Below are positions 6,944 through 11,989 of a stretch of 20,809 nt of DNA, in pieces. Both the position numbers and the translations under genes were made by a program. The DNA comes from Ochromonadaceae sp. CCMP2298 (Eukaryota; Sar; Synurophyceae; Ochromonadales; Ochromonadaceae): assembly GCA_026770595.1 (NCBI GenBank), contig MU633874.1, forward strand, positions 1 through 20,809, given 5' to 3'. The first letter of the stretch is position 1, and each line of letters starts with the position of its first letter. The notes beneath the pieces were generated by a model, which worked only from the letters and a program-made list of their open reading frames with translations, did not search any database and was not told the origin of the DNA.

Positions 6944-9900
6944 CTAAGCTTTAGCGGCTTTCACGAACTCCTCCCACTGCTCCTCCGACCACACCTCGAC
7001 GCCTCTGCTCCTGGCCTTGACAACCTTGCTGCTGACCCTGTCCCCAGCCTCCACCAGCAGGTCCACTGATTTGTCCATCGAACCCTTCGCGACGCCGCCT
7101 GGGAGAGGGGGGGGGAGGGGGGGGGTCAGGGGATGAGTGGGGATGGGGTCAGGGAATGGGGTGAGGGAAAAGGGTAGGGACTAGGGAGAAACAGAACACA
7201 GCACCCAGCAAACCCCCCCTACCCAGCACCCCTACCCATCCACACTTACCTAGCGCTTCGCAGATCTCGTGTGCCTGTGCCCTGGTGCTGCCCGCCAGCT
7301 TGCCCGTGAAGACCACCTGCCTGCCCGCAAGAGGGAGCGCCTTGGCGGTCCCCGCCCCTGCCCCAGCCCCAGCCCCAGCCCCAGCCCCAGCCCCAGCCCC
7401 TGCCCCTGCCGCTGCTCCATCCCCTGGGACTGCTTCTGTCTCTGTCTCTACCCTGGAGGAAGCACCTGCACCCTCACCCACACCCACACCCTCGTCCAGG
7501 GTCACCAGCCCCAGCAGCCGGTCCACAGCCCCCCTGCTGCGCGCGTCCCCTGCCAGGCGCAGCAGGGACTCGGCTGCACGGGGACCCACGCCTGGGATCT
7601 GCAGCAGCCTGGCGCCCAGAGACGACTCAGTAGTGTTAGTGGCGGCAGTGGCGGTGGCGGTACCAGTAGCATCAGTGACATCAGAAATGGCAGTGGCATC
7701 AGCAGCAGCAGCTTTCTCGATGTCTTTGGCAAGGTCTGCGAGGCGGGGGAGGGGGGATGAACATAGAGAAATAAATAAAGAGAACGAGAGAACGAGAGAT
7801 CGGGTGTGTGAGAGAGGAAGTGGTAGAGTGGGAGTTAATATGCTGAACAAACTGCTGCATACACCGCACACAATGCACATAAAGTATTGGCATACTGTCA
7901 CATCGGCATAGTGGCAGTATTGGCAGGGGCATAATACTCATCACTAACGCTCTCGCCCTCACCTGACTGCTGCTTCAGGTAGCGCCAGAGGGCGCCGAAG
8001 TCTCCGAAGAATCCGATTAGCAGCTTAGCGGACTCCAGACCGATGTGCGGCACGCCCAGGCCGTACAGAAACCTGAACAGCAGAGGCAGAGGGAGAGAGG
8101 GGCAGAGGGGCAGAGAGGGGCAGCATGGGGAGAGCGGGGAGGGCGGGGAGAGTGGGGAGTGTTAGAAGCACACAAGGCGGGCACATACGTCGTAATTGAT
8201 ACGCCCTACTCCCTCTACTCCCTGCGCTCACCTGTGGCTTTTCATGCTCCTGGAGTTGTCAATGGCTGCCAGCAGGTGGTTGACGGACCTGTCCCCCCAG
8301 CCCTTGCGACTGCGCAGTCCTGCCACCGCCCCCGCCACCCCCGAGGAGGTAGACGCAGAGGCATCTGGGCCCGATCCCTGCATCAGTGCTGGTCCCGCTC
8401 CTGCATCTACATCTGCATCTGCATCGTCTGCTCTCAGTAGCAGGGGCTGTGTGGGCTGTGTGGGCTGTGTGGGCTGTGTGAGGTCAGCGGCGCGCAGGCA
8501 GAACAGGTCCGCCACACTGCGTACCAATCCGCCCTGTAGATAGAAGAGGGAGGGAGACGAGGGAGGAGAGGAGAGGGGGAAGGGAGAGAAGAGGGGATAG
8601 GGGGGCAGAGGGGGGAAGGATAGAAGAGGAGAGAAGAGGAGAGGAGAGGGGAGGGGAGGTGGAGAAGACAGGAGTTAAGAGACAGATGTTTGCGGTTGCT
8701 TAAGTCTTCCCACTCACCTCGTACAAATCTTCGATGCGGCTCTTGCCCAGACCGTCGATGTCCGCTGCATCGCGAGAGCAGAAGTGGCTGAGGGGCAAGT
8801 ATGTGTGTTGTATGTATAGTGTATGCCGTGTGTGTGGTGTGTGGTATGTGGTGAGTCGTGGGGATGAGGAGAGAACAATGGTCAGGATGACAAGGAAGCT
8901 TATCTCAGCACAGGGGCGCATACAGCGTGATTGTGGGGACTGCCCCCTACCCCCCCCCTATGTCCCCCTATGCCCTATACCTGATGTGCTCGATGGCCTG
9001 GGCACTGCAGATCACGCCGCCAGTGCAGCGCACCGTCACGGGCACAGTGACGTCGTATAAGGGTTCGGAGGTCTCATAGGCTTCGAAGTCTGAGACTGCG
9101 GGTGCGCTCTTCCCCACCTCTGTCCCCGCCACCCCTGTCCCAGCCTCCGCCCCTGTCCCTGTCCCCGCCGTCCTTGTCCCTGCTCCCGCCCCAGCACTGG
9201 CTTTAGCAGTGGATGTTCTCTCGGTGGGCGAGCCGCACACGGGGCAGAAGGCGGGCAGTCGGTAGTTGTAGGACGTGTGGGTGTGGGCGTGGGTGTGGGT
9301 ATTTGGTACACCCTCCGTCTGTGTCTGCATCTGTGCCTGTGTCTCTGCCACCTGGGCGGGGTCATTGGGGCTGTCCTCTTGCTCCCGCACCAGACTCACG
9401 ATCTTGGGAATCACCTGCCCCGCCCTGCGCAGCAACACGCGCTGCACCCCCACATCCATACCCTGCTCCTGCTCCTGTCCCTGCGGATCCCTGAGTCCCA
9501 GGCGGTTGACCTCGTTCTCGTTGTGCAGTGTGGCTCTCTGGATCATCACACCGTCCAGCAGCACGGGATCCAGGTGTGCTGGGGGTTGAGGGATGAGGAG
9601 AGAGAAGAGGGGGGAAGAGGGAGGGGAGGAGGGAGGGGAGAGGCAAGTTAGGCGGTGACACGCATCGAGGATGCAGGTCTAATCGTAGAGCACATATCGA
9701 ACAGTGTACAGTACAAGCAGTGCACAGTACATAACACATAACGCATACTTTTAAAGCCCAGTACAACACACACCCAGTCTACGTACCTACTGGCGTGAGC
9801 GCGCCCGTGCGCCCCACCTGCACCACTATCCTCCTAAGCGCAGTGGTGGCGGTGCTCTGCTGTGGGAACTTGTAAGCCACTGCCCAGCGCGGCGCCCTGC

Positions 9901-11989: not shown

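Follow-up and report, generated by a model that had tools for sequence, protein, structure and literature searches.

DNA ligases that use nicotinamide adenine dinucleotide (NAD+), the LigA family, are normally bacterial enzymes. Nuclear LigA genes have been described in Paulinella micropora KR01 and P. chromatophora. In the available parts of these reports, KR01 has three such proteins (K01972), of which the first carries a chromatophore presequence, the second a predicted mitochondrial one, and the third no presequence, and the authors list them as being of eukaryotic origin (PMC7826189; PMC9450145). We analyzed a stretch of 20,809 nucleotides, called the window here, that forms contig C120; the assembly to which it belongs comprises 724 contigs with a total of 11,247,203 bases. 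The window contains a LigA gene on the minus strand (11989..6944) that is interrupted by six introns. The reading that we favor, and hold to be somewhat more probable than all others together, is that the gene resides in the nucleus of a photosynthetic alga and encodes a complete LigA, that it belongs to a eukaryotic clade of alphaproteobacterial descent, and that its product is imported into an organelle, which is most likely the mitochondrion, with the plastid as a possible further destination.

The gene has 1307 codons in seven exons and runs from a start ATG at 11989-11987 to a TAG stop at 6946-6944. All features of the gene given below are on the minus strand and were placed using the splice model, Pfam matches, and residue alignment. 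Exon 1 (9787..11989, 2203 nt) encodes the presequence, a Lys-rich spacer, domain Ia, and the adenylation domain with the lysine of the catalytic KIDG motif, K376, at codon 10862-10864. Exon 2 (8981..9578, 598 nt) encodes the OB fold and a zinc finger with the four cysteines C846, C849, C919, and C925, and is followed by the short exon 3 (8718..8787, 70 nt). The HhH region begins in exon 4 (8232..8533, 302 nt), continues in exon 5 (7963..8072, 110 nt), and ends in exon 6 (7250..7735, 486 nt), which contains the last HhH, an Ala-Gly linker, and the first half of the BRCT domain. Exon 7 (6944..7098, 155 nt) supplies the second half and the stop codon, so that the BRCT domain (residues 1228-1299, 6971..7337) is interrupted by intron 6.

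All six introns have GT..AG borders: intron 1 (9579..9786, 208 bp, GTACGT..CCCCAG), intron 2 (8788..8980, 193 bp, GTATAG..CCTCAG), intron 3 (8534..8717, 184 bp, GTGAGT..CTACAG), intron 4 (8073..8231, 159 bp, GTGAGC..GTTCAG), intron 5 (7736..7962, 227 bp, GTGAGG..TCGCAG), and intron 6 (7099..7249, 151 bp, GTAAGT..TCCCAG). When read through, they contain 1, 3, 1, 2, 2, and 1 in-frame stops, respectively, and this includes intron 4, the length of which is a multiple of 3. Thus, the reading frame is open only once it is spliced. The 3' end is rich in pyrimidines in five of the six introns (C+T of 0.82-0.92 over the last 60 bases, compared with 0.55 in intron 2). Every join is in register with a hidden Markov model (HMM) of the family built from 24 relatives with the window excluded; the residues at joins 1-6 in this alignment are LTPV/AHLDP, EHI/SHFCSRD, LYE/GGLV, SHR/FLYGLG, QS/DLAK, and ALG/GVAK, and the first join restores LTPVAHLDPV. 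The fifth join is the weakest and least constrained because it adjoins a variable insert. This architecture makes it probable that all six introns are spliced in vivo. A first-pass annotation of the window had proposed a bacterial-type NAD+-dependent ligase with six introns at 6944..11989, and these coordinates proved to be exact.

The spliced protein scored 467 bits with NF005932, the NCBIfam equivalog model for LigA, which has a cut-off of 369. It scored 413.7 bits with a second LigA model, TIGR00575, which is under the cut-off of 444.45. Pfam matches to the adenylation domain (171 bits), the OB fold (81.5 bits), and BRCT (23.2 bits, cut-off 21.3) were obtained, along with two HhH models that fell below their cut-off (24.4 and 20.1 bits versus 27). 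The zinc-finger model was absent from the five families reported for the spliced protein at E <= 0.001 and gave 22.1 bits (cut-off 25.8) with exon 2 alone. Alignment with the ligase 2owo, which we take to be LigA from E. coli, showed that E113, K115, D117, G118, E173, R200, R208, D285, K290, and K314 are kept, as are all four zinc cysteines. Four of the five domain Ia residues (Y22, D32, Y35, and D36) are also identical. We assume for these positions the roles of the aligned 2owo residues, including the binding of the nicotinamide mononucleotide half of NAD+ by Y22, H23, D32, Y35, and D36. The earlier observation of a LigA gene is confirmed. Several low-complexity inserts and about 190 extra residues at the N-terminus bring the protein to approximately twice the length of its bacterial counterparts. 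The inserts had been noted earlier, as had a hydrophobic leader, and both are present; a Lys/Ala/Val repeat spacer (repeat family D1, residues 85-195, 11405..11737) links the presequence to the catalytic core. Taken together, these features point to a complete member of the LigA family that is predicted to use NAD+ in sealing nicks.

Relatives were gathered with the window protein and then with a profile made from seven sequences, scores being computed for the 7999 candidates with the most words in common. The 120 matches listed by the profile include 24 eukaryote-type proteins, one of which is a fragment (P0133) that was dropped; adding P0004 brought the number of relatives back to 24. P0004 was found with the window protein yet is missing among the profile matches listed, so the selection of candidates evidently overlooks some members. 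Only one of the 24 relatives, P0140, is a EukProt protein. The other organism-labelled profile matches listed are Alphaproteobacteria, except for a metagenome-assembled genome labelled Gemmatimonas (P0222) and one protein labelled only as Pseudomonadota (P0189), and no organism-labelled row among the matches listed in either protein search is a eukaryote. With the same profile, 2owo scored 562 bits and 1dgs, presumably the Thermus ligase, scored 448 bits. Full-length matches listed from alphaproteobacterial genomes scored 501-738 bits, those from ten cyanobacterial genomes 493-527 bits, and rows sorted as other Pseudomonadota 451-580 bits, so that the ranges of the groups meet at their low ends. 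One of the alphaproteobacterial searches covers scores down to approximately 649 bits and leaves 12 of 289 genomes without a match; in another, 7 of 55 genomes have none.

Phylogenetic analysis placed the window protein among these relatives. In a FastTree analysis of 142 rows, the 25 eukaryote-type rows formed one clade with a support of 100, with the window beside P0140 (97). In an IQ-TREE analysis of 58 rows (LG+C20+F+G4), the 15 clade rows included were grouped with 100/100 support and the window and P0140 with 100/98. The FastTree set holds four misread bacterial rows (L126, L128, L134, and L202, with a spurious branch length of 6.3), none of which fell inside the clade and all of which were corrected for later trees. 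P0133, L137 (a match split in two), and L149 (a second match in the genome of L146) were dropped before counting, and 16 bacterial loci have 1-3 stops in the matched stretch that were read as X. The later trees, with 78, 58, and 62 rows, are hand-picked subsets of the 142. The clade is old or fast-evolving; mean identity within it is 48.4% (276 pairs, minimum 39.2) versus 55.6% within 93 alphaproteobacterial rows (4278 pairs). The first-pass annotation had considered that misassembly would be suggested if the core nested within a single present-day bacterial genus and lacked algal relatives; we found instead a broad eukaryote-type clade.

This clade is of alphaproteobacterial descent, as judged from trees and from residues of the zinc finger and HhH region. 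It grouped with 31 alphaproteobacterial rows, apart from other Pseudomonadota and cyanobacteria, with 100/99 support in the 58-row tree and with a support of 100 in the Shimodaira-Hasegawa-like approximate likelihood ratio test (SH-aLRT) in both the 78- and 62-row trees. The last two zinc cysteines are spaced C-x5-C in 22/25 clade rows, 70/93 alphaproteobacterial rows, and 13/14 rows from other Pseudomonadota (the pattern left 3, 23, and 1 rows unparsed, respectively), and C-x4-C in all ten cyanobacterial rows. The HhH region carries a GWG motif in 20/25 clade rows and 41/93 alphaproteobacterial rows, compared with 0/14 in other Pseudomonadota and 0/10 in cyanobacteria. These frequencies are to be read with the sampling in mind; because only the best-scoring bacterial loci were cut (up to 30, 20, 30, and 30 per search), the alphaproteobacterial sample is biased to clade-like sequences. 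Six alphaproteobacterial rows (L204, L205, and L208-L211, none of which is in the 58-row tree) and the 14 from other Pseudomonadota (L215-L228) come from a phylum-wide draw sorted by score, and ten protein rows count as Alphaproteobacteria, including P0139 and P0141, which carry no organism label.

The host appears to be an alga and the ligase looks imported, which would fit a cyanobacterial ligA gene that reached the nucleus through the endosymbiosis that gave rise to the plastid. We consider this very improbable. Enforcing a cyanobacterial grouping cost 41 log-likelihood units and was rejected by the approximately unbiased (AU) test (p-AU 0.0164), the finger spacing is unlike that of the cyanobacteria, and the window protein is 34.5-36.4% identical to the ten cyanobacterial rows compared with 34.2-43.5% (mean 39.6) for the 93 alphaproteobacterial rows. 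Of the earlier proposal of an organelle-derived or laterally acquired nuclear gene, residence in the nucleus with introns and inserts is borne out, and plastid ancestry is not supported. Acquisition from a giant virus or phage is just as improbable. Viruses carry LigA, and the same assembly has a second LigA-like open reading frame (L001, C174:9885-13454) that looks like a giant-virus gene. This frame is intronless, encodes 639 aa with adenylation, OB, and BRCT domains, and has an AAA ATPase as its neighbor on a viral-looking contig of 18 kb. Against this, the IMG/VR loci that encode a relative (80 kept of 95) are 27-39% identical to P0001 in their best segment, whereas clade members other than the fragment P0133 are 37-61% identical to P0001 over 63-98% of its length, the two ranges touching only at the most divergent members. 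In this one scan of IMG/VR no viral locus was as close as most clade members, and it is by identity, rather than by placement in a tree, that viral LigAs are set apart from the clade. Bacterial contamination, misassembly, or a dead copy might be expected in a fragmentary assembly that includes a virus-like contig, and this we regard as the least probable explanation of all. Six spliceosomal introns lie within conserved motifs, the frame is intact over 1307 codons with the core catalytic residues kept, and the closest relative in the trees is a EukProt protein; contamination was rejected on the introns and this kinship.

The alternatives that bear on where the enzyme works are closer to our preferred reading. 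The N-terminus had been likened to an organelle presequence, and residues 1-40 of the window protein indeed contain no Asp or Glu and four Arg, which suggests organelle import. At most one acidic residue occurs in the first 40 positions in 14 of the 25 clade rows, compared with 9-12 in all ten bacterial rows used for comparison (eight named alphaproteobacteria and two that group with them). Residues 1-20 (11930..11989) form a hydrophobic leader in which the 13-residue mean hydropathy peaks at 2.66. P0126, P0128, P0130, and P0136 likewise have values of at least 2.2, so that 5/25 clade rows carry such a leader. Such leaders favor a second version of the same hypothesis in which the enzyme and its alphaproteobacterial ancestry are unchanged and the plastid, or the plastid and the mitochondrion together by means of two start codons, is the workplace. 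In the two-start version, translation from Met1 would send the protein through the endoplasmic reticulum to a complex plastid and translation from Met13 or Met15 would yield a mitochondrial form. In red-lineage algae the plastid signal is of the ASAFAP type, with an aromatic residue after the leader, and the window protein has no aromatic residue there. Met13 and Met15 directly follow the leader, and an Arg-bearing stretch that resembles a mitochondrial presequence begins at this point. P0137, which is close kin of P0136, starts at the equivalent internal Met without the hydrophobic part, and 20 of the 25 clade rows lack a hydrophobic stretch. By composition, presequences across the clade look mitochondrial more commonly than they look like signal peptides. 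Double addressing has precedents, since two start codons serve Arabidopsis LIG1 (mitochondrion and nucleus) and Cyanidioschyzon LIG1 (mitochondrion and plastid) in what is available of PMC4166229. Based on the presequence-like start at Met13/Met15 and the P0136/P0137 pair, the mitochondrion seems a likelier address than the plastid, and we give a plastid or double address roughly one chance in four.

Features of the assembly bear on the nature of the host. The Chloroa_b-bind family of light-harvesting proteins has 21 matches on 14 contigs and also matches one of 14 control genomes (Synechococcus elongatus); from these 21 matches we take the host to be photosynthetic. Four light-harvesting matches with alternating strands lie within 3.5 kb of one contig (C123:9634-13146). 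Contig C200 contains a bZIP_2 match (964-1086, plus strand) and a PAS_9 match (1258-1530, plus strand) in the same phase and within one open frame of 235 residues; these families match 0/14 and 12/14 of the control genomes, respectively. Judged from coordinates alone, the two probably form one protein with the two domains of aureochromes. The available parts of two papers describe aureochromes as found only in stramenopiles or heterokont algae (PMC9416419, PMC3779222), and the host is probably an ochrophyte (stramenopile). These matches and the spliceosomal introns agree with the earlier proposal that the gene resides in a eukaryotic nucleus. Searches of the assembly with PF01068 and PF04675 found no ATP-dependent ligase. 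Since a search with PF00476 also found no family-A DNA polymerase, the organelle type, the assembly is probably incomplete or such genes are broken by introns, and the missing ligase says nothing about the host.

Several observations weigh against the reading that we favor. The eukaryotic nature of 23 of the 24 relatives is deduced, since they carry no taxon label, and the assignment of the host group depends on a single bZIP-LOV pair read by coordinates only. At the position of H23 the window has Tyr, as do 22 of the 24 relatives, and in the column of R277 it has Ser where 23/24 relatives have Arg, with an Arg two residues off in a loop that bears an insert. In the zinc finger, an insert of about 55 residues separates one pair of cysteines from the other. 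The amino-acid composition of the window protein was flagged as deviating from the alignment, and the bootstrap of the 58-row IQ-TREE analysis was not fully settled (correlation of 0.988). The acid-poor start is not shown by 11 of the 25 clade rows, and the hydrophobicity of the leader would suffice for a signal peptide, which would favor a plastid or secretory route.

According to our preferred reading, splicing would yield a precursor of 1307 residues with an acid-free, Arg-bearing N-terminus that may direct it to an organelle; the mitochondrion is the likeliest destination, and the plastid may be another. Domain Ia would bind NAD+, and adenosine monophosphate (AMP) would be moved onto Lys376 and then passed to the 5' phosphate of a nick, after which the ends would be joined. 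By analogy with the family, the enzyme would in this way seal the nicks left by replication and repair of organelle DNA. The structure of the gene, its domains and conserved residues, its membership of the clade, and the affinity of the clade to Alphaproteobacteria come directly from the computations; splicing in vivo, activity, import, compartment, and host group are predictions from these.

Mitochondria branch as sister to, or within, the Alphaproteobacteria. A bolder possibility is that the clade descends directly from the ligA gene of the mitochondrial ancestor, which in some eukaryotes would never have given way to an ATP-dependent ligase, would have moved to the nucleus and gained introns, and would still serve the mitochondrion and, in algae, perhaps the plastid too. 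In the 58-row tree the 31 alphaproteobacterial rows without the clade were grouped with 84/85 support, which favors the clade as sister to all Alphaproteobacteria. In the 78-row tree the clade lies at the base of the Alphaproteobacteria. By contrast, the 62-row tree, with eight clade members and more fast-evolving alphaproteobacteria, placed the clade inside the group beside five of its rows (SH-aLRT of 84-94), all of which are also in the 78-row tree. The AU test did not reject a union of the clade with the order of L031, the genome of which is titled Rickettsiales (p-AU 0.343), or with 14 crown alphaproteobacteria (p-AU 0.162), and the stem of the clade is long in all three trees (0.8-1.46 changes per site). 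A later transfer from an alphaproteobacterium accounts for the same data, and we hold retention from the mitochondrial ancestor only tentatively, at somewhat less than one chance in three. Among protists, Andalucia godoyi has the mitochondrial genome that most resembles those of bacteria. In the available part of a report on this species, the ligase listed is ATP-dependent, and the authors conclude that the replication of mitochondrial DNA had already been remodelled before the last common ancestor of eukaryotes arose (PMC7050145). If retention were true, this early remodelling would have been incomplete. A eukaryotic LigA clade that branches deeply and joins the Alphaproteobacteria would be either a counter-example to that inference or an old transfer.

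Other features of the window surround the ligase gene. A divergent neighbor has a putative start ATG at 12071 on the plus strand, 81 bp from the ligase ATG, and continues with a plus-strand frame at 12588-19862 (2424 aa) that has FN3, WD40, and LysM matches. The close relatives of this neighbor are unnamed proteins and a single EukProt protein (P0228, 48%), the name of which follows the pattern of P0140. Directly upstream of the large frame, at 12426-12584, are two direct copies of 73 bp that are 99% identical and start 86 bp apart. On the other side of the ligase gene, 3465-3571 and 6614-6723 form an inverted pair of 110 bp with 92% identity. The first copy is part of a minus-strand frame (3242-3589) in which a DTGSP stretch hints at a retroelement aspartic protease, although Pfam found nothing in this frame. 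At the left edge, a plus-strand frame at 2-2647 that extends beyond the window encodes a guanylate-binding-protein GTPase domain (77.8 bits) and a Cys-rich C-terminal stretch.

The ligase that acts on organelle DNA in algae is poorly known, and an enzyme that draws on NAD+ would couple nick sealing to organelle NAD+ levels and could be approached with LigA inhibitors. In plants, the plastid ligase of Arabidopsis remained unclear in the part of PMC4166229 available to us. Within the open-licence literature searched, as far as its text was available, we found no report of an ochrophyte LigA and no statement of a eukaryotic LigA clade attaching to Alphaproteobacteria; the terms 'NAD-dependent DNA ligase' and 'stramenopile' co-occurred only in a paper on haptophyte viruses. 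A nuclear LigA in a eukaryote had been put forward at first as unexpected, and this surprise is smaller than was implied, since the Paulinella cases were already published. As far as descriptions in the available text allow, the Paulinella proteins resemble the window ligase in being encoded by eukaryotic nuclear LigA genes and differ in that their host is no ochrophyte (PMC7826189, PMC9450145). Arabidopsis LIG1, Cyanidioschyzon LIG1, and the ligase of Andalucia godoyi share with it a supposed role in sealing nicks in organelles; in the text available, these are eukaryotic-type enzymes (stated to be ATP-dependent for Andalucia), whereas the window ligase is of the NAD+ type with another domain make-up (PMC4166229, PMC3914683, PMC7050145). 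The viral-looking frame on C174 shares the adenylation, OB, and BRCT domains, and the viral LigAs of IMG/VR are more distant. With bacterial LigA (EC 6.5.1.2), especially that of Alphaproteobacteria, the window protein shares the domain order (Ia, adenylation, OB, Zn, HhH, BRCT), the catalytic and NAD+-binding residues, the C-x5-C finger and, in some alphaproteobacteria, the GWG motif. It differs from these bacterial enzymes in that its gene is nuclear and has six introns and in its long N-terminal extension, its long low-complexity inserts, and the insert in its zinc finger.

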